Source: Candidatus Omnitrophota bacterium (GTDB taxonomy: Bacteria > Ratteibacteria > UBA8468 > B48-G9 > DTJG01). From it: a DNA stretch of 38,809 bases. The number at the start of each line of letters is the position of its first letter. Position 1 is the stretch's first letter. Below are positions 18,154 through 35,488 of this stretch, piece by piece. The DNA lies in NCBI GenBank assembly GCA_023484085.1, contig JAMDAS010000026.1, forward strand, positions 1 through 38,809. Reading direction: 5' to 3'. Below the pieces are notes generated by a model that worked only from the letters and a program-made list of their open reading frames with translations, had not been told where the DNA came from and did not search any database. Both the position numbers and the translations under genes were made by a program.

Positions 18154-18588
18154 CTACTTCTTACATTTTTTGCATATCCCATAGAGTTCCATCCTGTGTC
18201 TTTGCGGGGCAAAACCGAACCGTTTAAACAATTTTTCCTGTAGCCGCTCTATGTCCGGGTCAACGACCTCAACAAACCTGTTGCATTTTACGCAGATAAG
18301 ATGGTCATGATGCCTGTGCCCGTATAAATGTTCATACCGGGTAGTTCCATCGTCAATCTTTAACTCAAGGCAGAGTCCGCATTCACAGAGTAATCTGATG
18401 GTTCTGTAAATAGTTGCATACCCGATTGATGGATATTTTTTCCTGACAATCCCATACAGTTCATCAGCGGTTATATGTTTATCTGTGTTTAAAAAAACAT
18501 CCAGTATTTCTTTCCTCTGCTCGCTGTGTTTAAGATTTTCCCTGGCAAGATAATCTTCAAATATTTTTTCCTCGTTTTTCCGTATCAT
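18154..18588 (-). CDS. fur: Fur-family metal-responsive regulator
   Basis: This 144-aa protein from ATG 18588 has the N-terminal winged helix (LKHSEQRKEILDVFLNTDKHITADELYGIVRKKYPSIGYATIYRTIRLL), the metal-binding HRHHDHLICVKCNRFVEVVD, and two CxxC pairs (CVKC and C-terminal CKKC) for structural zinc. A GTG at 18600 would add four residues; neither start has a strong Shine-Dalgarno. Family members include Fur, Zur, Mur and PerR, and sequence alone does not fix the metal. A Fur-box-like site lies at its own transcription start and the following gene is an Nramp transporter, so a Fur or Mur role in metal uptake is most likely. Confidence 0.92.
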   Translation of the reverse strand: MIRKNEEKIFEDYLARENLKHSEQRKEILDVFLNTDKHITADELYGIVRKKYPSIGYATIYRTIRLLCECGLCLELKIDDGTTRYEHLYGHRHHDHLICVKCNRFVEVVDPDIERLQEKLFKRFGFAPQRHRMELYGICKKCKK

Positions 18589-18610
18589 AGGAATCCACAC
18601 CCAAAAATAT

Positions 18611-19987: not shown

Positions 19988-20302
19988 TTATTGTACCGAA
20001 ACTTTTTCTATATTACTTCTATACCTGTCCTTCAGCTCAGCTTTTTTACCCTTGTTCCAGGAACCCACCTTTGAAAAATATCCTGTAACCCTTGTAATCT
20101 GTTCAACGTTTTTCCCATGATGTGTCTGTTTTAAAAGCTCCTCAATGTTATTATCAAGGATTGCCTTTTCTGAAAAAAATGTCATGGTATCAAACTGCCT
20201 GTCCTGTACCATAATTCCTGATGTTTGAGCTTCCATTCTTTCTTTAACCTCATAATTTTCAGAAAACTTTTTCAAATACTCAACAAATCTTTCTTTTTCC
20301 AT
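19988..20302 (-). CDS. Stand-alone glycyl-radical subunit of class III ribonucleotide reductase
   Basis: This 104-aa protein starts at ATG 20302, preceded by a strong AGGAGG; a longer in-frame reading from 20368 lies inside nrdD and is unlikely. Its C-terminal part TRVTGYFSKVGSWNKGKKAELKDRYR corresponds to the glycyl-radical tail of NrdD (E. coli RVCGYLG followed by NAGKQEEVKRR), with the candidate radical glycine at G74. The catalytic chain encoded 17 bases upstream ends just after its zinc ribbon and lacks this tail. The first 65 residues are charged, probably helical, and not recognised. I infer that it docks on NrdD and carries the radical, much as GrcA/YfiD can do for pyruvate formate-lyase. 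No activase (NrdG) gene lies in the window. Confidence 0.85.
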   Translation of the reverse strand: MEKERFVEYLKKFSENYEVKERMEAQTSGIMVQDRQFDTMTFFSEKAILDNNIEELLKQTHHGKNVEQITRVTGYFSKVGSWNKGKKAELKDRYRSNIEKVSVQ

Positions 20303-20319
20303 TTTCCTTTCCTCCTGTG

Positions 20320-23300
20320 TTATCTTAAAATTTTTATGCCTTCTTTTTCTGCGGAGCAGTGTGGACACCGGGAATGTAATCCTCTGTAAACTTTACCACA
20401 GTCAAGACATGACGTAAATTCCGGGCTGAATGCCACTTGTGAATTTTTGGTGTATCTGAAAATTCTGATAACAAAATCTGAAAGAGACCTGACATCCGGG
20501 TTGGATTCTCCCAGCCATACATGCGTTAAAGCCCCTGCATCAATCAGGGGATGAAAAACCCCTTCTTTCCTGACCCTTTCAACAGGCGAAATATTTTCAG
20601 AAATATTCAGATAGGTTGAATTTGTATAATAAACGTTGTCCGACAGGGTCCCTTTTATAACCTCTTTTGTCTGCTCATAATAATGCCCAAGATCAAGCCT
20701 GGCAAACCTGTATGCAGTGGATTCAGCCGGAGTTTGTTCAAGAACAAACTTTAATCCTGTTTGCCGGCTATATTTTTCACAGGCAATCTTCAGATAAGAA
20801 ATAATCCTAAGCCCCATTTTAAAAGCATCCTCGCTTTCATGCAATTGCAAGCCCGTATGGTACTGTACCATTTCATTTAATCCAAGCAATCCTATAAGAT
20901 GCGTAACCCTGTGCATTCTTAAATAAGATTCTCCATCAAGATTCATTGTCAGGAGCGCAAGTGGTCCGTTCTGTCCCAAGGCAAGAATTTTTTCAATGAA
21001 TCTTCTTTTTTCAATGTGTGCTTTTACGACCCGCTCCATAAATTTATCCATGGTTTCAAACAGTTTTGTTTCATCATGTTCAGCAATATAGGCACAGCGG
21101 GGCAGATTGAGAGTAACGTTCTGCAATGCGGAAAATCTCATCTTCCATGGATGTTTTGCATCCTCAAGGTCAGAGGCTTCAAGCTTGAACTGCAAACGGC
21201 AGCACTCGCTTATTTTTGCCGTGTTATCCCTGTCAAAAACAAAATACGTATTTCCCTTTTCTGAACCAACAAGACAGGCAAGCTCAAGAAATTCATCTGC
21301 TCCTTCAGTCTGAAAAAACTTGTTGGTAATGTGCAGCAGGGGTTTGGGGAAGAAAAAAGGTCTTCCCATTCCATCCCCCTGGAGGTATACCTCAAAAAGA
21401 GCCTTTATAAATCCCTGTGATTCTTTTTCATATTCCCCATAAACCTTACCTGTTTCGGTTCCGCCGGGCCCAATCGCCTTCACATTAACAAAGTGTTCCG
21501 GTATTTCCCAGTAAAGATTTACGTCACTGAATATTGCCTGCCCCCCCCTTGCAACGGCCTGCTGGCTATATTCGTAAATAAGCATCTGTGCAAGCTGTTT
21601 TATTTCCCTGTCAGAAACCCCTGTAAGGAAAGGCGCAAAAAATACGTTAATGGCATCCCAGCCGATAGCCCCGTTAAAATGCCCCTGCAGGGCTGCTGAA
21701 AATTTTACCATGTGTGCTAAAAGCGTTTCCGGATGTTTTGCAGGTTTTGCCATTGATAAAGAGTTGGGAAGGTTAAGTCCGAATTTCTTAATATATTCCA
21801 AACTTTGGCCACTGCAATTATGTGCCCAGATACCACTACAAATAAAAGTCTTACTTTCTGTTGTTATGTCATAAACATAACTATCAATGTTTTTTATTTC
21901 TTTTATTTTAAATACAGGCGAAAATTCAGAGTGGCTTATATTTTTTTTACAAGATTTAAATCCTCCATTAAGTTTATTTATCTTATTACACATCTTGAAA
22001 TATTTTTTATCTTCCCGGGTTAAATAAATTCTCAATAAAAATAAAGGCAACCTGGATTCAATTTTTTTCCCTCTATACCATCTTGGCCCATAACTATTTA
22101 TATGTCGTAAATGATTTCGTATTCCTTTAATATCAAGCCACAATTGTATTTGAGAAAGTAAAGTTTTTGATGTTACACGAATCATAACTTCTGTTACATA
22201 ATTATCAGTCCTTATAGTACCATCACCATCTATTATTCCGGAGATAATTGCTGATTGAATATTTTCTTCCATTTCGTAAAAGTTTGAAGGTAGTGTTTTA
22301 TTTTGAGAATAAATACCAATTTGTAAATCTTGTTGAAATTTATCCGTTAGACTCTTACTATAGATTCTAATTCTTTCTTCATCTCCAGCATATTTAATAT
22401 TGTTTTTATCAAGATAGTTTTTTACCCTTACCAATTCTTTACTTCTTATTGCCATTTCATTTTTACCGTAAAATCCTTCTGCAATAAAGTAACCTAAAAA
22501 CCATGCTTTTTCTTCATTATTGATAAATTCATCCTTATATAAACCTGAACATGCCACATTTGTAATTAAGGGTGTTAAAATAAAATCATATGTAGTTAAT
22601 TTTTCCGCTGAAACAGTTTCAAAGATTAGACTGTCAACCTTTTGGATATTTCCTCTAAACCTTTTGCCACACTTCTTACACCAATAAATCCTTGTATTCT
22701 CTCTTCTTCCACCATCTTTAACAATATTTTCTTTATTCCCACAATATTTACATTCTATACATTTAATTTTATCTTGTAACCTGATAAAAGGATGGTCTTT
22801 TGTTACAACTATAGTTTTTCCATTTTTTGTACTTATAGATAAAAGAGGTTCTGATATTTTATGTCTTATAACCCTTTTTAAAGAAACAAATCCGCCTTTA
22901 TCTAATACTTTAATATCTTGAGGTTCTTTAAATTCAAAATCATTACCCTTTATTACATCTGAATCAGCAAACTCAAAAAATTGTTTTAAATTAAAACAAT
23001 TTATAAATCCATTTTCTTTTATAATAATAGTTTCATAGGGGGAAAAGGAATAAGGTCTGTCTATGAAACCAAGGTCGTGCAGGTGAATATCACCTCTCAT
23101 ATGGGCATCAGAAACCTCCGGAGAAAAAACTTCCAGCAGGGCAAATTCTTTTTTTATGTTTTCTGCAAGTGTAAGATTGGTTGCTTCAGGATTATGCGGA
23201 ATATTGGCATTTTCCTTGTTTGGATGGATTATAATATTTCTTACATCTATAAGAGGAAGACCCAACCGTGTATATTTTTTTCTTTCTTGTTCAAAACCGA

Positions 23301-23898
23301 GTTCAATGAGTTTTGCATTGACCATTTCTCTTATAAGAGGAGACGTAAGAAATTTCACCTTTGAAGTAAAAATCCCCTTTTCAACTTCAACAGCAATTGT
23401 TCTTGCAATTCTTTCATCAAGGGACGTTTCTCTTACGAGTGAAGATACTATTTTTTCCCTGTTCCATGTGATAATATCCTCTCCGCTGGTCCTTACAAAA
23501 AGGCTCAGGTCAGTGGATTCTTTCGTTTTTAGCAGTGTATCAGGTTCTTCCGAAATTTGAATACCCTGTTTTATTTTTCTTATTCTCTGCCTTTTTTCCC
23601 TGTAGAGAATATATGCCTTGGCGGTTTTTGCATGTCCAGTCTTTATAAGAACTTTTTCCACGGCATCCTGTATTTCTTCTACAGAAGGGATTCTATCTTT
23701 AAATTCTTTGTTCAAATACATTGTTACTGCTTCAGCAAGGTCTTCTGCAAGATACCTGTCCTGTCCGCCAACGCTCTTTGCAGCTTTAAATATTGCCTCT
23801 ATTATTTTATCTTTATCAAAAGGCACGAGTCTGCCGTCTCTTTTTTTGATAGATATAACTATAGTTTTGGAGGGTTCATTATTGTTTTTGTTCATCAT
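20320..23898 (-). CDS. nrdD: Anaerobic ribonucleoside-triphosphate reductase, intein-containing, lacking glycyl-radical tail
   Basis: The precursor is about 1192 aa from ATG 23898. Positions below count from a farther upstream in-frame codon at 23955, which I reject as a start because it precedes the predicted transcription start. An ATP-cone (ISIKKRDGRLVPFDKDKI, near 35-125) and a second cone-like domain (near 150-245) precede the NrdD catalytic barrel (HMRGDIHLHDLGFIDRPY ... CSGQSLEYIKKFGL). A 411-residue intein separates RPY from CSG. The mature chain of about 780 aa ends in a zinc ribbon, CLDCGKVYRGLHSRCPHC, and stops 13 residues later without the RVxGY radical site. It makes dNTPs without oxygen, presumably with the next ORF and an unlinked NrdG. 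Confidence 0.93.
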   Translation of the reverse strand: MMNKNNNEPSKTIVISIKKRDGRLVPFDKDKIIEAIFKAAKSVGGQDRYLAEDLAEAVTMYLNKEFKDRIPSVEEIQDAVEKVLIKTGHAKTAKAYILYREKRQRIRKIKQGIQISEEPDTLLKTKESTDLSLFVRTSGEDIITWNREKIVSSLVRETSLDERIARTIAVEVEKGIFTSKVKFLTSPLIREMVNAKLIELGFEQERKKYTRLGLPLIDVRNIIIHPNKENANIPHNPEATNLTLAENIKKEFALLEVFSPEVSDAHMRGDIHLHDLGFIDRPYSFSPYETIIIKENGFINCFNLKQFFEFADSDVIKGNDFEFKEPQDIKVLDKGGFVSLKRVIRHKISEPLLSISTKNGKTIVVTKDHPFIRLQDKIKCIECKYCGNKENIVKDGGRRENTRIYWCKKCGKRFRGNIQKVDSLIFETVSAEKLTTYDFILTPLITNVACSGLYKDEFINNEEKAWFLGYFIAEGFYGKNEMAIRSKELVRVKNYLDKNNIKYAGDEERIRIYSKSLTDKFQQDLQIGIYSQNKTLPSNFYEMEENIQSAIISGIIDGDGTIRTDNYVTEVMIRVTSKTLLSQIQLWLDIKGIRNHLRHINSYGPRWYRGKKIESRLPLFLLRIYLTREDKKYFKMCNKINKLNGGFKSCKKNISHSEFSPVFKIKEIKNIDSYVYDITTESKTFICSGIWAHNCSGQSLEYIKKFGLNLPNSLSMAKPAKHPETLLAHMVKFSAALQGHFNGAIGWDAINVFFAPFLTGVSDREIKQLAQMLIYEYSQQAVARGGQAIFSDVNLYWEIPEHFVNVKAIGPGGTETGKVYGEYEKESQGFIKALFEVYLQGDGMGRPFFFPKPLLHITNKFFQTEGADEFLELACLVGSEKGNTYFVFDRDNTAKISECCRLQFKLEASDLEDAKHPWKMRFSALQNVTLNLPRCAYIAEHDETKLFETMDKFMERVVKAHIEKRRFIEKILALGQNGPLALLTMNLDGESYLRMHRVTHLIGLLGLNEMVQYHTGLQLHESEDAFKMGLRIISYLKIACEKYSRQTGLKFVLEQTPAESTAYRFARLDLGHYYEQTKEVIKGTLSDNVYYTNSTYLNISENISPVERVRKEGVFHPLIDAGALTHVWLGESNPDVRSLSDFVIRIFRYTKNSQVAFSPEFTSCLDCGKVYRGLHSRCPHCSAEKEGIKILR
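21817..23049 (-). other. LAGLIDADG intein within nrdD
   Basis: The insert runs from Ser (TCC, 23047-23049) to Asn (AAT, 21817-21819), 411 residues, and is followed by a +1 cysteine. Block A is SFSPYETIIIKENG, block B TIVVTKDHPFI (TxxH), block F YVYDITTESKTFICSGI and block G WAHN/C, all expected for protein splicing. The middle holds a LAGLIDADG homing endonuclease with both motifs, LGYFIAEG and ISGIIDGDG, each keeping an acidic residue. Splicing would rejoin FIDRPY to CSGQSLEYIKKFG, a conserved NrdD block. The A+T-rich DNA of the insert contrasts with the surrounding extein. Confidence 0.93.
22653..22763 (-). other. Zinc-ribbon insertion inside the intein
   Basis: Just after block B, the intein carries C-x2-C-x2-C at KCIECKYCGNKE and CKKCGKRFRG about 22 residues later. 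The layout CxYCG...G...R...YWCKxCGKRF is the pattern of zinc ribbons at the N-terminus of InsA/IS1-type transposase regulators. It lies between the splicing and endonuclease domains, where it could add DNA-recognition capacity. Confidence 0.65.
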
Positions 23899-23918
23899 AT
23901 ATTTGTTTTTAATAATTA

Positions 23919-23934
23919 ATACGATATATTGTAT
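23919..23934. promoter_or_regulatory. NrdR-box-like site, proximal
   Basis: On the minus strand ATACAATATATCGTAT matches the NrdR-box consensus ACACWATATATWGTGT at 13 of 16 positions. It lies downstream of the -10 box, at the transcription start. Confidence 0.55.
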
Positions 23935-23941
23935 TTTACAA

Positions 23942-23970
23942 ATTATAAAACACAATATTCAGGTCTGCAA
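23942..23970 (-). promoter_or_regulatory. Promoter of the nrdD operon
   Basis: On the minus strand TTGCAG (23970-23965), a 17-base spacer and TATAAT (23947-23942) form a promoter, with the start near 23935. This fixes the nrdD start codon at 23898 rather than farther upstream. Confidence 0.65.
23950..23965. promoter_or_regulatory. NrdR-box-like site, distal
   Basis: On the minus strand GACCTGAATATTGTGT matches the NrdR consensus at about 11 of 16 positions, with a perfect right half. It lies between the -35 and -10 boxes. The two sites are 31 bases apart centre to centre, the three-helical-turn spacing known for NrdR box pairs. Confidence 0.45.
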
Positions 23971-26698: not shown

Positions 26699-29600
26699 AT
26701 GATAAATGAAAATTTTATAAAACAGCAGTTTAAATGGCTGCAAACCCATCTAAAAAGGGAAAAATCCAACACTAAATATCCTGTAGAAGAACAGGTTATC
26801 CAGACGGATATTTTAAGCATTGAACAGATTAAAGACAGGGCAGAAACGTTAGCGGGCTGGCATAAAACAGAAGAGGTTTTATACACAGAAAAACTTCTTT
26901 TCAGCCTGGATAAAAACAAAAAGGTTTTATTCCAGTCTTACCAGGTAATTATTGATTCCATAGAAAAACAGCAGAGAATTACCCCGGCCGTGGAATGGTT
27001 CATAGATAATTTTTATCTCATTGAGGAACAAATAATCATTATCTATCAACACTTCTCTAAAAGCTACAGCAGGCAGCTCCCCCGTTTAAAAATAGGTCCA
27101 AGAAAAGGATATCCAAGGGTTTATGACATAGTTTCTGACCTGATTTCACACGTGGATGGCAAGGTAAACATCCAGAATCTTTCTGTATTTATAGACTCTT
27201 ACCAGAAAATAACCTCACTGAAATTAGGTGAACTATGGGCAATTCCAATTATGCTCAGATTAGCATTGATTGAAAATCTGCGCAGAATCGCCGTAATACT
27301 GATAAATGAAGTCAATGACCGTTCAAATGCCGATACATGGGCTGAAAAATTGATTGATACCGCAGTCAAATCTCCAAAGGATCTGATACTTGTAATGGCT
27401 AAATTATCGCAGACAGAGCTAACCATGACGGATACCTTTGTATCAGAGTTTATACATAAAATACAGGGGCAAAGTCCTGAGCTGGTTTTTCCGCTTACGT
27501 GGCTTGAACAGAGACTTTCTGAAGATGGCAAAACGAGTGAACAATTAATACAGGCTGAAACCCGGCGTCAGGCAATAAACCAGGTTTCAATAGCAAACAC
27601 AATAGCCAGTTTGCGCTTTATAGACTCGGTAAACTGGCACGAGTTCGTGGAAACTCACAGCGTGGTTGATTCAGTTTTACGGACAGACCCGTCCGGTGTG
27701 TATGAAAAGATGGATTTTTCCACGCGCGATAAATACAGGCGCACTATTGAACAGATTGCCAAACACAGTTCATTTTCAGAAGAAGAAGTGGCAAAAAAAA
27801 CCATAGAGCTCGCAAAGAGAAAAAAGGGGGAAAACCCATCAGATTATCGCATCCATCACATTGGATTTTATTTAATCGGACAGGGTAGAACCGAATTAAA
27901 AAAAATCTTGGGTCTCCACTGTAAATGGGAATGTTTTTCAGGCCTTGGACAAAATTTCAGATTGATGGTGTACCTGGGTTGTATCTTTTCCATCTGTATT
28001 ACAATTACAACAATAATGGCACTGTATTACTACAACTATCTTTATTTTTTACCGGACTCTTTATTTTTCACGCTTATCACATTATTAAGTTTGCTGATAT
28101 TTATATCAATAAGTCATCCAGCGGCCGCGATTGTAAACAGAATAGCGACTTTACTGATAAAACCCGAAAGTCTTCCCCGTATGGACTTTTCCAAAGAAAT
28201 ACCTTCACAGGCATGTACCGCGGTTGTTGTGCCATGTCTTTTAATAAATCACCTGCAGGCTAAAAATCTTTTGGAGGGAATTAAAATAAGATATCTTGCC
28301 AACAAGGATAAAAATCTGTTTTTTGGACTTTTAACCGATTTCCGCGATGCGCAAAATCAAAACATGCCGGATGACGAAAAACTTCTTGCCATTGTCAGTG
28401 ATGGAATCCGGTCTCTCAATAAAAAATACGGCACTGAAAAATTTTTCCTTTTACATCGCAATCGTCAATGGAATCCCGTAGAACGTAAATGGATGGGATA
28501 TGAACGAAAACGCGGCAAGCTGATCGGATTTACTCTATGGCTCAGGGAAAGGAACAAGGGCGGGTTTTTGGTTCAGACAGCTGCAGAAAAAATTCCTGAA
28601 ACAATAAAATACGTGATAACTCTGGATACCGATACAAATCTGCCGCGTGACACGGCACGCTCAATGATAGAGATAATGGAGCACCCTTTAAACAGACCCG
28701 AATATGATGAAAAACGGCAATGTGTTTCCTCTGGTTACGGGGTTGTTCAGCCCAGGTTAGCAATAAATCTTTCTTCCACGAACGTTTCACTTTTTTCCAG
28801 GATTTTTTGTTATGAGCCCGGTATAGATCCGTACACGCGCGCAGTTTCAGACGTTTACCAGGACGTATTCAGGGAAGGCTCTTTTACAGGAAAAGGAATC
28901 TACGATGTTGACGTTTTCATTAAGGTGCTGGCACAAAGATTCCCTGAAAACAGAATCCTGAGCCATGACCTCCTGGAAAGTTGCTACCTGCGTTCCGGGC
29001 TGGCAAGCGACATACAGATTTATGAAGATTTCCCCTCTAAGTATGACACGGATGTAAACAGAAGACACAGATGGATACGTGGAGACTGGCAGATAGCCGT
29101 ATGGCTGTTCCCAAATGCGCCGGGAGCAAAAATTAAAACACGCAGTCATATCTCACTGCTGTGCAGGTGGAAGCTCTTTGATAACCTGCGGCGCAGTATT
29201 GTACCACCTGCCTTATTTATTATCACGATTACAGGGTGGTTATTTTTTAACCCTGCATGGTTCTGGACATTTATGGTTATTTCTATAATCTTAATCCCTT
29301 ACGTTCTTCACGTATTGGATGATATTTTCAGAAAACCTCAACGTGTGCCTGCAATAATGCACATTCGTACGATAAGCCGGCGGATTTTTATCCAGGCTTT
29401 TACGGGTATATTTCAATTTATTTTTCTGCCTCATGAAACGTTTTACAACCTTGATGCCATTATTAGAACAATTAACCGCATACTGTTTACCAGACGCGGG
29501 CTTCTTGAATGGCAGACTTTCCAGGAAGCAAAAAACACCGCCACACAAACGACGTTTTATCGTTCAATGCTTGCGGCTCCTGCAGCAGCAGTTGTCTTAA

Positions 29601-32600
29601 TGATTTATTTTGCCCTGAATCATTTCTACGGGGCGGCATCTCTATATATATGGCTCCCTTTATTTTTATGGTTTATAAGCCCGGCAATTGCATGGAAACT
29701 CAGCCAGCCGATAAAAACAAAAACCTACAGATTAACCGGGACACAGAATCTGTTTCTTCACAAACTTGCCAGAAAAACATGGAGATATTTTGAAGATTTT
29801 GTCAGTGAAGAAGATAACTGGCTTCCCCCGGATAATTATCAGGAATATCCGGACCCCAAAATAGCGCACAGAACCTCACCAACAAACATCGGAATTTACT
29901 TAGTGTCAAATTTATCGGCTTTTGACTTCGGGTATCTTTCCACACAAAAATTCCTGTCAGGAATTGAAGAAACTTTTAGAACAATGGGAAAAATGGAACG
30001 ATTCCGCGGACATTTTTATAACTGGTATAACACCCGGTCCATGGAACCTCTTCCTCCGCTATACGTATCCACAGTGGATAGTGGAAACCTTGCAGGATAC
30101 CTTCTTATTCTCAAGCAGGGACTATTAGAACTTGCGGAAAAAAACGTTCTTCCTGATAATCTGTTCCAGGGTTTAGAGGATACGCTTTTTGTAATCCGTG
30201 AATGTTTTGAAAAATCAAAAACACTATTATCAAGGGAAAGAAATTTTCTAAGATACTGGCTGTCAAATATTTCCGGAAAACTCAGAGAATGTAAAAAAAT
30301 GCACCCGGGTTTTTCCACACCAACAAAAGCTCCAGAAAATGGAAAATGGAATTTTATTGAAATAAAAGCTCAAATGAGCTGGTTTATCAAACAAACAGAA
30401 GAACTTATAGCATATCTTCATGAACAAAATGACAGGGAAATAATGTGGTGGACTTCTGCCTTTTTACAACAAATCAAAGATAATTTTGATGATTTGATTT
30501 TTTTACTCCCATGGTTAGAGCTGGAAATCCCGGCTGAATTAAGTTTCCTGACTGCAGACTTATTAAAAAGCCCTTTATCCCTGAATACCCTGATTAAAGC
30601 CACAAAGAAGTCCATATCTGAGATTGAAAAAATAATGGCTTCCCCATCCCGGCAAAATTTAACATCACAGGAGAAAGATTTTCTTACAGAGCTTTCTGAA
30701 AGTTTTCATTCCACGATTGATAGAGCAGGAAAAAGGCTCATAACAATAGAGGAAATGTCTATTTTATGTGAAGAATTTTCAAACTATGAGTATGAATTTT
30801 TGTATGATAAGCATAAGCTTCTTCTGTCTATCGGGTATAACGCAAGCGAACATCTCCGTGATAAAAGCCTTTATGATCTTTTATCTTCAGAAGCCAGGCT
30901 GGGAAGTTTTCTCGCTATCGCCATTGGCGCTCTTCCTCAAAAACATTGGTTTGCTCTTGGAAGACCCCTGACAACCGTAACGGGAAATCCTGCCCTTCTT
31001 TCATGGAGCGGGTCCCTGTTTGAATACCTGATGCCCCTTCTGATAATGCCTTCATATCCTGATACTTTGTTGGACAATACCTATAAAACCGTAGTAAAAA
31101 CCCATATTGAATATGCAAAAAAGCAGGGTGTGCCATGGGGAATTTCAGAATCATGTTATGGTTTGATGGATGCTGACCAGAATTACCAGTATGGTGCATT
31201 TGGCGTACCATCCCTGGGATTCAAAAGAGGTCTTGCTGAAAATCTTGTGATAGCACCTTACTCATCAGTCATGGGATTAATGGTTTTTCCTGAAGAATCT
31301 TATGAAAATTTGTACCGGATGGAGCATGAAGGATTTATAGGAACATATGGATTTTATGAATCTGTGGATTATACACCTACAAGAGTATTACGGGGACAAT
31401 CCCGCACTATAATACGTACGTTTATGTCCCATCACCAGGCAATGACTTTGCTGTCTTTATGTTACCTGCTTCTGGATAAACCTATGCAAAGACGATTTTT
31501 ATCCAATCCTGTATTAAAATCCGCGGAACAGCTTCTCCAGGAAAAAGTGCCTGAATCAGAACCATTTTATCCAAGAATACCCAAGTCAACGTTTGCAGAA
31601 CAAAATATTATGGACTATGAAAAAGCCTTAAGGATTTTTCATAGTCCAAACACACCTGTGCCGGAAGTTCATTTGCTTTCCAATGCACATTATCACGTTA
31701 TGATTACCAATTCCGGGGCAGGCTACAGTAAATGGAATGAAATTGGTATAACAAGATGGCGTGAGGATATCACGTGCGATACAAATGGATTATTTTGTTA
31801 TATCAGGGACATAGACAGCGGAAAAGTGTGGTCCGCATGTTACCAGCCTACAGGAATAGAATCAATATTATATGAAGCGATTTTTATGCAGGGCAGGGCG
31901 GAATTTCGCAGGCATGATGGTAATTTTATAACTTATACTGAAATTGCTGTATCCCCGGAAGACGACGTGGAAATAAGAAGAATAAGCATTACCAATCGTT
32001 CTCACGTTTCAAAAGAATTGGAGTTAACTACTTATACGGAAATTGTATTATCTTTATTATCGGACGATGCCACCCATCCTGTGTTCAACAATCTCTTCGT
32101 TCAGTCAGAAATTATCCCTGACAGGAAATCAATCATATTCACCCGGAGAACAAAAACTGAAAAAGAACGTCCTTTATGGTTATTTAACATGCTTTCCACT
32201 AAACAATATCCTTATGGAGACGTTTCTTATGAAACTGACAGGCTGAAGTTTATCGGCAGGGAAAGAACACTGGCAAACCCTGTGATTCTCGATTCACCAG
32301 GCCGACTTTCCAATACGTCCGGTAATGTGTTAGACCCCATTTCAGCCATACGGATACGTTTGACTATCGCCCCGGAGGCAACTGAAAGAATAAACATTGT
32401 AATGGGAGTATCTGAAAACAGAGAGAATATATTGAAATTGATAGAGAAATATAGTGATTATTCCGCTGCTGAACGTATTTTTGACTTAGCCTGGACGCAT
32501 AGCCATGTAGTCCTTAGTCAACTGAATATTAACGAATCTGATGCACAGACGTATAACAAACTTGCAGGCTCTATTATATTTTCAAGCTCTTTACACAGGG

Positions 32601-35488
32601 CTTCAAGTGAAGTCATCTCAAAGAATAAACGGCGTCAATCTGATTTATGGGCTTATGGAATATCAGGCGACCTTCCAATCGTTCTTTTACGGATGACAGA
32701 TGCATTAAGAATAAATTTTGTGAAACAGCTTTTGAAAGCGCATGCTTACTGGCGCTCCAAAGGATTGAACGTTGACCTTGTCATCTGGAATGAAGAGGTG
32801 GCAGGATACCAGCAAATGCTTCAGGATAACATAATGGGGGCAATCTCTTCCGGTCCGCAGGCACATCTACTGGATACACCCGGCGGAGTTTTTGTCCGTA
32901 AGATTGAACAAATTTCGGAAGAAGGACGTATACTTATACAGGCAGTATCCAGGATAGTAATCACGGACAGAACGTTCAACCTTATAGACCAGATTGAACG
33001 CCGTGGCAAACCAGAACAAAGCATTTCCAAATTTAAACCCGGTTATTTCAAAAAAAGAAAAACTGATTTATCTGCCAAACGTCCAAGAACAGACATAATT
33101 TTTAATAACGGATTTGGAGGATTTACTCCTGATGGAAAAGAATACGTCATAAACCTTTCACGAGACAACAAAACCCCTGCTCCATGGGTAAATGTTATGG
33201 CAAATCCATATTTTGGAACCATTGTTTCGGAAAATGGAAGCTCTTATACGTGGAAAGAAAACTCACATGAATTTCGTTTAACTCCGTTTTATAATGACCC
33301 TGTAATAAACCCGGGCGGTGAAGCAATATACATCAGAGATGAAGACAGCGGCGATACATGGTCACCCGCCCCTTTCCCAGTCAGAGGCAACCAGTTTTAC
33401 GTATGCAGACATGGATTTGGCTACACTGTTTTTGAGTATGGCCAGACAGGTATAGTTTCTGAATTATACATATACACGGATATATCCTCTCCGGTTAAAT
33501 TTTTAAGATTGAAAATATCCAACCATTCAGGTACACCAAGAAGGATGTCAATAGTTGGATATGTTGAATGGGTTCTCGGGGAGCTGAGACAAAAATCCGC
33601 AATGCACGTTACTACCACGATTGACCCTAAAACCGGCGCGATTTTTGCCCGTAACGTCTACAGCATGGAGTTTTCGGATTTTGTAGCTTTTTTTGACGTC
33701 AGCGAGATTAACAAGACGTTCACCGGGGACAGAACCGAATTTATCGGGAGAAACAGGAACCTGACAAATCCTTTATGGTTAAGCAGGTCGCACCTGTCGG
33801 GTAAATTGGGTGCCGGTATGGACCCATGCACGGCAATACAGACATATATAGAACTATCAGAAGAAGAAGACAAGGAGATTGTTTTTATTCTCGGTTCAGG
33901 GAAAAACACCAGGGAAGCGCAGGAGATTGTGCAGAGATTCCGCGGTTATGGACCGGCAAAAAAATCTTTGGAAGACGTATGGCAGCATTGGAACAACATT
34001 CTCGGCACCGTTTACGTGGAAACCCCGGATATCCCGGTTAATACCCTAACTAACGGATGGCTGCTCTACCAGACAATTTCCAGCAGGCTCTGGGCGCGCA
34101 GTGGTTTTTATCAAAGCAGCGGTGCTTATGGTTTCCGGGACCAATTACAGGATTCCCTTGCAGTTTTACATACACAGCCGGATATTTCCCGTAGCCATAT
34201 TCTTTATTGCGCAAGCCATCAATTCAAAGAGGGCGACGTTCAGCACTGGTGGCATCCACCGTTTAACAGGGGCATCCGGAGCCGTTTTTCAGATGACCAT
34301 CTCTGGCTGCCTTTTGCAGTATGCAGGTACATTGACATAACCGGGGACGCAAAGGTTCTTGATGAAAAAACCAGTTATATCCAGGGCCGTCTTTTAAACC
34401 CTGAAGAACAGGAATATTACGATTTACCGGGAACAACCAATGAAACGGATAGTTTATACCAGCATTGTGTATGCGCCATCAAATACAGTCTGAGATTTGG
34501 CATACATGGACTGCCATTAATAGGCAGCGGTGACTGGAATGATGGAATGAACCGGGTTGGCAGGAATGGTCAAGGTGAAAGCGTCTGGCTTGCTTTTTTC
34601 CTGTATGACGTTCTGACAAAATTTGCAAAATTGGCAAAAAAACATGGCGACGTTTCATTTGCCTCGCAGTGTGAGAAAGAAGCCGTCCGCCTTAATGATG
34701 CCATAAACCAGACTGCATGGGATGAAGAATGGTACGTCAGGGCGTTTTTTGACGATGGAAAACCCCTGGGTTCAAAAATCAACACGGAATGTAAAATTAC
34801 CTCACTGCCCCAGTCCTGGGCGGTTATTTCCGGTGCGGGTGACACTGATAAACGCGCCCGTGCCATGGCATCCGTGGAAAAAGAGCTTATTTCATGGGAT
34901 AACAGACTTATAAATTTATTGGCTCCCCCATTTGATAAGTCTGATTTAAATCCCGGCTATATAAAAGGGTATCCGCCAGGAATAAGAGAAAATGGCGGAC
35001 AATACACCCACGCGGGCGTATGGGTAGCCATGGCATTCTGCCTGTTGGGGGACAAATCAAAAGCATGGAAAGTCTTTTCTTTGATTAATCCCATAAACCG
35101 CTCTTCCACAAAATCCGATGCAACTGTTTATAAAGTTGAGCCTTACGCCGTCACAGCTGACGTTTACTCTTTCCCCCCCTATACGGGCAAAGGAGGCTGG
35201 ACGTGGTACACGGGCTCATCAGGATGGATGTATCAGCTTATTCTTGAATATTTTTTAGGTGTCCAACGAAATGATAACAGAATAATTTTTTCACCGTGCA
35301 TACCTGAAAACTGGCAGACATACAAAATTCATTACAGATACAAGGAAACAATATATCACGTCAATTTTACCCGCGTTCAAACAGATAAAATTTCCGGCAT
35401 GTCCATGGATGGAATACCGATAGAAGAAAAGTGGCTCACCTTAACGAATGATAAAAAGGAACATTTCGTAGAGGTAAAAATCCTGTGA
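26699..35488 (+). CDS. ndvB: Cyclic beta-1,2-glucan synthase-like protein (GT84-GH94)
   Basis: This 2929-aa membrane enzyme resembles NdvB/Cgs, which builds, elongates and cyclises periplasmic beta-1,2-glucans from UDP-glucose. Membrane helices lie near residues 421-477, 830-880 and 960-1000. Between them is the GT84 glycosyltransferase domain with TLDTDTNLPRD near 641 and RRHRWIRGDWQ near 788. A glycoamylase-like domain follows (PLPPLYVSTVDSGNLAGYL, then YGAFGVPSLGFKRGL). Two large beta-sandwich/GH94 modules come next, with the phosphorylase catalytic block GSGDWNDGMNRVG near 2611 for chain-length control. All expected blocks are present and the frame is open over 8.8 kb. It is monocistronic and converges on yraN. 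Confidence 0.93.
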   Translation: MINENFIKQQFKWLQTHLKREKSNTKYPVEEQVIQTDILSIEQIKDRAETLAGWHKTEEVLYTEKLLFSLDKNKKVLFQSYQVIIDSIEKQQRITPAVEWFIDNFYLIEEQIIIIYQHFSKSYSRQLPRLKIGPRKGYPRVYDIVSDLISHVDGKVNIQNLSVFIDSYQKITSLKLGELWAIPIMLRLALIENLRRIAVILINEVNDRSNADTWAEKLIDTAVKSPKDLILVMAKLSQTELTMTDTFVSEFIHKIQGQSPELVFPLTWLEQRLSEDGKTSEQLIQAETRRQAINQVSIANTIASLRFIDSVNWHEFVETHSVVDSVLRTDPSGVYEKMDFSTRDKYRRTIEQIAKHSSFSEEEVAKKTIELAKRKKGENPSDYRIHHIGFYLIGQGRTELKKILGLHCKWECFSGLGQNFRLMVYLGCIFSICITITTIMALYYYNYLYFLPDSLFFTLITLLSLLIFISISHPAAAIVNRIATLLIKPESLPRMDFSKEIPSQACTAVVVPCLLINHLQAKNLLEGIKIRYLANKDKNLFFGLLTDFRDAQNQNMPDDEKLLAIVSDGIRSLNKKYGTEKFFLLHRNRQWNPVERKWMGYERKRGKLIGFTLWLRERNKGGFLVQTAAEKIPETIKYVITLDTDTNLPRDTARSMIEIMEHPLNRPEYDEKRQCVSSGYGVVQPRLAINLSSTNVSLFSRIFCYEPGIDPYTRAVSDVYQDVFREGSFTGKGIYDVDVFIKVLAQRFPENRILSHDLLESCYLRSGLASDIQIYEDFPSKYDTDVNRRHRWIRGDWQIAVWLFPNAPGAKIKTRSHISLLCRWKLFDNLRRSIVPPALFIITITGWLFFNPAWFWTFMVISIILIPYVLHVLDDIFRKPQRVPAIMHIRTISRRIFIQAFTGIFQFIFLPHETFYNLDAIIRTINRILFTRRGLLEWQTFQEAKNTATQTTFYRSMLAAPAAAVVLMIYFALNHFYGAASLYIWLPLFLWFISPAIAWKLSQPIKTKTYRLTGTQNLFLHKLARKTWRYFEDFVSEEDNWLPPDNYQEYPDPKIAHRTSPTNIGIYLVSNLSAFDFGYLSTQKFLSGIEETFRTMGKMERFRGHFYNWYNTRSMEPLPPLYVSTVDSGNLAGYLLILKQGLLELAEKNVLPDNLFQGLEDTLFVIRECFEKSKTLLSRERNFLRYWLSNISGKLRECKKMHPGFSTPTKAPENGKWNFIEIKAQMSWFIKQTEELIAYLHEQNDREIMWWTSAFLQQIKDNFDDLIFLLPWLELEIPAELSFLTADLLKSPLSLNTLIKATKKSISEIEKIMASPSRQNLTSQEKDFLTELSESFHSTIDRAGKRLITIEEMSILCEEFSNYEYEFLYDKHKLLLSIGYNASEHLRDKSLYDLLSSEARLGSFLAIAIGALPQKHWFALGRPLTTVTGNPALLSWSGSLFEYLMPLLIMPSYPDTLLDNTYKTVVKTHIEYAKKQGVPWGISESCYGLMDADQNYQYGAFGVPSLGFKRGLAENLVIAPYSSVMGLMVFPEESYENLYRMEHEGFIGTYGFYESVDYTPTRVLRGQSRTIIRTFMSHHQAMTLLSLCYLLLDKPMQRRFLSNPVLKSAEQLLQEKVPESEPFYPRIPKSTFAEQNIMDYEKALRIFHSPNTPVPEVHLLSNAHYHVMITNSGAGYSKWNEIGITRWREDITCDTNGLFCYIRDIDSGKVWSACYQPTGIESILYEAIFMQGRAEFRRHDGNFITYTEIAVSPEDDVEIRRISITNRSHVSKELELTTYTEIVLSLLSDDATHPVFNNLFVQSEIIPDRKSIIFTRRTKTEKERPLWLFNMLSTKQYPYGDVSYETDRLKFIGRERTLANPVILDSPGRLSNTSGNVLDPISAIRIRLTIAPEATERINIVMGVSENRENILKLIEKYSDYSAAERIFDLAWTHSHVVLSQLNINESDAQTYNKLAGSIIFSSSLHRASSEVISKNKRRQSDLWAYGISGDLPIVLLRMTDALRINFVKQLLKAHAYWRSKGLNVDLVIWNEEVAGYQQMLQDNIMGAISSGPQAHLLDTPGGVFVRKIEQISEEGRILIQAVSRIVITDRTFNLIDQIERRGKPEQSISKFKPGYFKKRKTDLSAKRPRTDIIFNNGFGGFTPDGKEYVINLSRDNKTPAPWVNVMANPYFGTIVSENGSSYTWKENSHEFRLTPFYNDPVINPGGEAIYIRDEDSGDTWSPAPFPVRGNQFYVCRHGFGYTVFEYGQTGIVSELYIYTDISSPVKFLRLKISNHSGTPRRMSIVGYVEWVLGELRQKSAMHVTTTIDPKTGAIFARNVYSMEFSDFVAFFDVSEINKTFTGDRTEFIGRNRNLTNPLWLSRSHLSGKLGAGMDPCTAIQTYIELSEEEDKEIVFILGSGKNTREAQEIVQRFRGYGPAKKSLEDVWQHWNNILGTVYVETPDIPVNTLTNGWLLYQTISSRLWARSGFYQSSGAYGFRDQLQDSLAVLHTQPDISRSHILYCASHQFKEGDVQHWWHPPFNRGIRSRFSDDHLWLPFAVCRYIDITGDAKVLDEKTSYIQGRLLNPEEQEYYDLPGTTNETDSLYQHCVCAIKYSLRFGIHGLPLIGSGDWNDGMNRVGRNGQGESVWLAFFLYDVLTKFAKLAKKHGDVSFASQCEKEAVRLNDAINQTAWDEEWYVRAFFDDGKPLGSKINTECKITSLPQSWAVISGAGDTDKRARAMASVEKELISWDNRLINLLAPPFDKSDLNPGYIKGYPPGIRENGGQYTHAGVWVAMAFCLLGDKSKAWKVFSLINPINRSSTKSDATVYKVEPYAVTADVYSFPPYTGKGGWTWYTGSSGWMYQLILEYFLGVQRNDNRIIFSPCIPENWQTYKIHYRYKETIYHVNFTRVQTDKISGMSMDGIPIEEKWLTLTNDKKEHFVEVKIL

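Follow-up and report, generated by a model that had tools for sequence, protein, structure and literature searches.

Oxygen destroys glycyl-radical enzymes at the radical glycine. Repair of this damage by a spare protein has so far been shown only for pyruvate formate-lyase (PFL), and YfiD and Y06I are stated to be the only validated spare parts, with others for different glycyl-radical enzymes considered a possibility (PMC8683613). Ribonucleotide reductases (RNRs) that are distributed over more than one protein or coding piece have also been described. In the split class II enzyme NrdJa/NrdJb, the C-terminal part of the RNR resides on a separate protein, although this enzyme belongs to another class and what has become separate there is not the radical carrier but a region of zinc-finger and IscU-like type that serves re-reduction (PMC9669993). 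Similarly, phage nrdD genes can consist of more than one coding piece, as a consequence of introns, inteins or fragmentation of unexplained nature (e.g. in Aeromonas phage phiAS4), and a radical domain that stands alone and has gained a further conserved domain is not mentioned in the pertinent passages of that study (PMC3653736). Here, we describe a family of small proteins that provides a concrete and testable candidate for spare-protein repair of the class III RNR NrdD, the DNA-precursor enzyme of anaerobes. One of its members is encoded in a 38,809-nucleotide stretch of DNA from a Candidatus Omnitrophota bacterium (referred to as the window), a bacterium whose enzyme for making DNA building blocks without oxygen appears to have its oxygen-sensitive 'spark plug' on a small, replaceable protein of its own.

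On the minus strand of the window, the nrdD gene is directly followed by a small gene located in a different reading frame (Table 1). The nrdD open reading frame can be extended upstream to a TTG codon at position 23955 (ORF 20320-23955), but a start at position 23898, yielding the N-terminal sequence MMNKNN and followed by an ATG three bases later, or at a nearby site is more likely. The Shine-Dalgarno sequence of the small gene, AGGAGG in CACAGGAGGAAAGGAAAATG, lies in the 17-base intergenic gap, in agreement with a first-pass annotation of the window and with its coordinates, except for an end position of 20440 that extended into nrdD. The NrdD chain terminates with CPHCSAEKEGIKILR, 11 residues beyond the final zinc cysteine; its early stop had been recognized previously, but the remaining tail had been put at 13 residues. 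The protein also contains a LAGLIDADG intein (21817-23049, approximately residues 303-713), which ends with HN before the sequence CSGQSLEY and is absent from the relatives L034-L041 and L095, and from the eight relatives read over their full length. Elsewhere in the window, positions 26699-35488 comprise an ORF of 2929 residues that, by eye, resembles proteins of the cyclic beta-glucan synthase/cellobiose phosphorylase type.

Table 1. Features of the nrdD locus and their positions in the window.
Feature	Position	Strand	Description and basis
nrdD	20320..23898	-	Two ATP cones, barrel (intein-interrupted), cysteine finger loop and C-terminal zinc ribbon; without glycyl-radical motif
nrdD stop codon	20320-20322	-	
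Finger loop ECCRL	21193..21207	-	Catalytic cysteine(s); from sequence, double-cysteine type of T. maritima
Zinc ribbon CLDC...CPHC	20353..20409	-	Final structural element before the stop codon; homologous to the ribbon of fused NrdDs
Gap between nrdD and small gene	20303..20319	-	17 bases, containing the AGGAGG of the small gene
Gene of small glycyl-radical subunit	19988..20302 (including stop)	-	104 residues; ATG at 20302, stop codon at 19988-19990, own Shine-Dalgarno sequence
N-terminal domain of small subunit	20123..20302	-	Residues 1-60; predicted alpha-beta3-alpha fold; alignment of split and stand-alone relatives, dN/dS
Codon of G74	20081..20083	-	Predicted radical glycine of RVTGY; aligns with the glycyl-radical domain of PcNrdD, chain residues 705-736

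Domain matches and structural alignments indicate that the two chains add up to a single NrdD. The larger chain matches the PF13597 (NRDD) model with an E-value of 8.6e-127, covering model positions 1-53 and 54-535 in two blocks, together with two Pfam ATP-cone domains, and it scores above the cut-off with TIGR02487 (367 bits). It also possesses the finger-loop cysteine, in a double-cysteine loop of the type described for Thermotoga maritima (PMC9669993), and the C-terminal zinc ribbon. In its domain and motif content, the enzyme therefore agrees with a class III RNR, the one exception being that the radical motif is not in the same chain, and its catalytic chain is an NrdD and not a B12-dependent class II catalytic chain, unlike in the case of NrdJa/NrdJb. 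As proposed in the first-pass annotation, the RVxGY motif is absent from NrdD and located on the next ORF, where residue G74 corresponds to the glycine of the sequence RVTGY. The assignment of this ORF as the missing glycyl-radical tail is borne out by a match to the end of the PF13597 model (positions 531-560/562; E=1.2e-7). PF13597 alone passed the cut-off in a Pfam search with the small ORF, whereas the PFL-type Gly_radical domain (PF01228) did not, so that the protein is not filed as GrcA. When compared with the NrdD of Prevotella copri (8p23), whose radical glycine is Gly711 (PMC11226230), the NrdD of a relative from the same genus (L034) aligns up to residue 704, and a profile of the small proteins aligns to residues 705-736, the stretch that includes Gly711. 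Therefore, the two chains tile one NrdD. A second complete, in-frame NrdD C-terminus, named in the first-pass annotation as an observation that would contradict a two-chain enzyme, was searched for in the 62.6% complete assembly of the window genome, and none was found.

Two chains that together make up one NrdD would also result if an error in sequencing or assembly had disrupted an ordinary nrdD gene, or if its parts were joined by programmed frameshifting or stop codon read-through, and the nrdD stop codon and the small ORF indeed share the same frame in three relatives (L037, L040 and L041). However, frames and distances between the nrdD stop and the start of the small gene vary among the nine loci compared, and three in-frame cases out of nine is the share expected by chance. 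As suggested earlier, other genomes were searched for the same split. Apart from the window, it is present in eight genomes of the family, which corresponds to all of those in which the gene was found (8/8), with one further family genome (63% complete) being without the gene. It is also found in f5, a sister family of the same class, in which one genome (G029) shows the complete arrangement and another (G031) an arrangement interrupted by a contig end. This recurrence goes far beyond chance. The small proteins are 49-72% identical to that of the window, and the split NrdDs form one clade (99/96), which has single-chain NrdDs from WOR-3, Eisenbacteria and Desantisbacteria as its neighbors. Moreover, the small ORF has a dedicated start codon and Shine-Dalgarno sequence, includes about 60 conserved extra residues that are absent at this place from every fused NrdD compared and, in other phyla, is located on another contig, far from NrdD. 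Since the split and the extra domain are conserved across two families, they reflect neither a frameshift, which had been judged unlikely from the outset, nor an assembly error. We therefore reject a broken or recoded gene as an exceedingly improbable explanation.

The small gene, including the region coding for its N-terminal domain, is under purifying selection. A comparison between the window and its relative L034 yielded a dN of 0.15 and a dS of 1.5 for the gene as a whole and a dN of 0.22 and a dS of 0.74 for the N-terminal domain. These low dN/dS ratios, the intact finger-loop cysteines and zinc ribbon as well as an NrdD identity of 89% inside the genus argue against the idea that both the truncated NrdD and the small ORF have lost their function and are undergoing decay, with the class II RNR of the genus doing the work. 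In favor of decay, a second RNR is present in the window genome and in G001, a genome of the same genus (class I/II-type RNRs in G000 and G001), and the window NrdD is additionally interrupted by its intein. By contrast, no class I or class II RNR was found in the sister-family genomes G029 (90% complete) and G031 (86% complete), whose only RNR thus seems to be the split NrdD, or in the less complete genomes G005 and G008. Decay is hence a very unlikely scenario. All nine split loci examined show the gene order nrdR-nrdD-small gene; in the window itself, nrdR is not adjacent to nrdD. The activase NrdG2 scored above its cut-off in 17 of the 22 genomes, G001 being one of them, and a strong NrdG2 candidate was not seen in the 62.6% complete window genome.

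The N-terminal part of the small protein had initially been described as about 65 unassignable residues. This extra sequence proved to be a conserved predicted domain of about 60 residues. AlphaFold2 models residues 1-60 as a helix, three strands and a second helix (alpha-beta3-alpha) with a pLDDT of ~82, and an alignment of split and stand-alone relatives shows that the pattern of this segment is kept from the phylum of the window to archaea. The radical tail of the small protein, when predicted alone, is disordered. In a search of the PDB for similar folds, no significant match was obtained for the small protein (best E-value 0.023, for a designed protein). Because the N-terminal domain is thus without a match among solved folds, its designation as a putative docking domain for NrdD is a guess. 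A read-through pseudo-complex, modeled for L037 with the stop codon as Gly and 34 sequences, was of too low a confidence for interpretation, with a mean pLDDT of 64 and values below 50 in the radical loop.

Small proteins with the same architecture are also encoded by separate genes away from nrdD. A scan of genome contigs and surveys of the Thermoplasmata, Margulisbacteria and Desantisbacteria identified such stand-alone genes in 19 of 74 Margulisbacteria, 7 of 300 Thermoplasmata and 1 of 19 Desantisbacteria genomes, and they also occur on viral contigs. Sixteen of the 19 Margulisbacteria holders contain NrdD-sized frames that include the radical tail, mostly two in tandem; of the other three, one contains a fragment and two lack such a frame. 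The nine complete NrdDs that were inspected in archaeal, Desantis and WOR-1/Margulis holders all retain the motif TR[VI]TG[YF]. The stand-alone relatives in these three groups therefore combine a separate gene with a complete partner, as in the case of GrcA, a combination that is not found in the window. In a tree of the small proteins, the split ones group (88/83) among the stand-alone ones, which is too weak as proof that the spare part came first. As a separate observation, Margulisbacteria often possess two different complete nrdD genes in tandem beside nrdR (L122/L136, L123/L138; G108, G109). In one archaeon (G103/L046), the gene for NrdG2 is located directly upstream of the stand-alone small gene.

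Some of the stand-alone genes occur without a recognizable partner. No NrdD was detected in three archaeal holders (G100, G104 and G106), whose assemblies may be incomplete, and a small gene without NrdD is a poor fit to a spare part. Small proteins of the same plan are also encoded on IMG/VR contigs (L181, L182, L185, L186, L191, L193 and L196), and in 17 of the 21 viral records checked, the match to PF13597 is confined to such a small tail and a complete NrdD is absent, although this absence is no proof because the records are fragments of uncultivated viruses. A tblastn search of an annotated phage collection with two of the small proteins returned no match. Copies without NrdD would be consistent with the notion that the small protein serves a different enzyme as an autonomous glycyl-radical protein, or that it acts as a regulator or as a decoy competing for the activase. 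However, its radical loop is of the NrdD type (PF13597, TIGR02487), not of the PFL type, and exactly this part is missing from the window NrdD. Furthermore, the small gene is always found directly behind the truncated NrdD in the families f1 and f5. We thus give little credence to a role outside NrdD. Among the viral sequences, an ORF of 806 residues (L187:2914-5331) joins a glycyl-radical small protein and a phage DNA polymerase (PHROG 17, E=1.1e-45) in a single frame, making it a candidate for a physical link between dNTP synthesis and the polymerase.

The genomic context of the stand-alone genes points to a connection with oxygen. Using a panel comprising Fur/PerR, flavodiiron protein, rubredoxin, rubrerythrin, superoxide reductase and peroxiredoxin, we found at least one oxygen-defence gene in 13 of the 28 stand-alone loci (266 kb) but in none of 20 loci with a complete NrdD (248 kb), which mostly came from the same genomes (an overlapping set). 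The difference (Fisher p=0.0002) persisted upon omission of the four loci that had supplied the queries (9/24 versus 0/20; p=0.0018), with both p-values serving only as a guide because loci of related genomes are not independent. This oxygen-defence context and the co-occurrence with complete NrdD suggest that the stand-alone small proteins act as a spare part for oxygen-cleaved NrdD, and they strengthen the analogy to GrcA/YfiD drawn in the first-pass annotation. Around the split loci, the panel was absent (0/9), so that we infer oxygen repair in the lineage of the window only from its relatives. A Fur gene in the window (18154-18600) was considered as oxygen-defence context but rejected, as it is not conserved beside the split gene in relatives (0/9).

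NrdD tails have been split on several occasions, and in different ways. In Hydrothermarchaeota-type archaea (L057, L069, L071, L072, L077, L080, L082 and L083), NrdD is split inside the zinc ribbon, and the second protein combines the other half-ribbon and the radical loop with a glutaredoxin/thioredoxin-like domain at its C-terminus, thereby uniting the radical carrier and the presumed reductant in one protein. Patescibacteria (Moraniibacteriota and others; L090, L091, L092, L079, L086, L088, L089 and L094) encode proteins of ~60 residues that comprise the radical loop together with one half of a zinc ribbon, with the genes located behind a truncated NrdD in L090-L092 and behind another gene in L079, L086, L088 and L089. 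In L022 and L023, NrdD is extended beyond the ribbon by a helical tail, and the small protein opens with a matching helical stretch before the sequence EVYSR[VI]VGY, perhaps forming a coiled-coil link.

Such repeated splitting, inside the ribbon or behind helical extensions, indicates that a split at this place is easy, and the small gene of the family sits in the nrd operon rather than in an oxygen-defence locus. It is thus conceivable that the enzyme does consist of two chains but that the split is neutral, reflecting a broken gene whose parts stayed together by the chance of their operon position, without any role in exchange or repair. However, a neutral split leaves unexplained why complete NrdDs are found alongside stand-alone relatives, and the added domain of the small protein is conserved between bacteria and archaea. 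We consider this possibility unlikely, albeit far from negligible.

Collectively, we favor the view, with a probability of about 0.8, that the window encodes a two-chain class III RNR whose small subunit is replaced after oxygen cleavage and that the stand-alone relatives are spare parts of NrdD. The two-chain enzyme was already proposed in the first-pass annotation, and the conservation of the split and the added domain now supports it. In this model, the ATP cones, the zinc ribbon and the barrel that carries the catalytic cysteines would all come from NrdD, whereas the small protein would contribute the glycyl-radical loop with G74 and the C-terminal tail, forming a complex with NrdD by means of its N-terminal domain of ~60 residues. 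The NrdG2 activase would generate the radical on G74 in trans, and the loop of the small protein would then enter the NrdD barrel to give rise to the thiyl radical. Upon oxygen cleavage at G74, the 104-residue subunit alone would be exchanged. Given that the window NrdD ends near the position at which oxygen would cut a normal NrdD at its glycine, it resembles a permanently pre-cleaved enzyme, which would, in effect, always use the spare part. With somewhat less confidence, although still with odds better than even, we propose that a family of NrdD spare parts exists in bacteria, archaea and viruses, often in oxygen-defence clusters, and that in the lineage of the window such a spare part turned into an obligate subunit and replaced the built-in radical domain, which would make this enzyme the first RNR whose radical carrier can be exchanged. 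A natural two-chain NrdD would make radical loading, insertion and replacement separable for study, unlike the one-chain enzymes. Neither an NrdD radical domain on a separate chain nor a spare part for NrdD is described in the literature searched, which covered few subscription journals, and entries for such small proteins in sequence databases may well carry no label other than NrdD.

Counting both chains, the enzyme has the same elements as the NrdDs of Prevotella copri (8p23) and Thermotoga maritima (4coi), i.e. an ATP cone, a barrel, finger-loop cysteine(s), a zinc ribbon and RVxGY (PMC11226230). In contrast to these single chains, its zinc ribbon and radical loop lie on separate proteins, with a new domain added. 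The small protein, in turn, resembles GrcA/YfiD of E. coli and Y06I of phage T4 (PMC8683613). Like these, it is small, is made separately and carries a glycyl-radical loop that replicates the one of its partner enzyme, along with an extra N-terminal part of ~60 residues; its partner, moreover, would lack the loop after oxygen cleavage, and stand-alone copies exist in cells with an intact partner and in viral contigs. For the viral small proteins, Y06I, which acts on PFL, represents the obvious parallel. There are, however, differences to GrcA/YfiD. The radical loop belongs to the NrdD family and not to PFL, the N-terminal part is predicted to be folded, whereas that of YfiD is disordered, and the partner in the lineage of the window is without a loop of its own, so that the small protein must be obligatory. 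It probably works like GrcA, yet stands outside the GrcA family.
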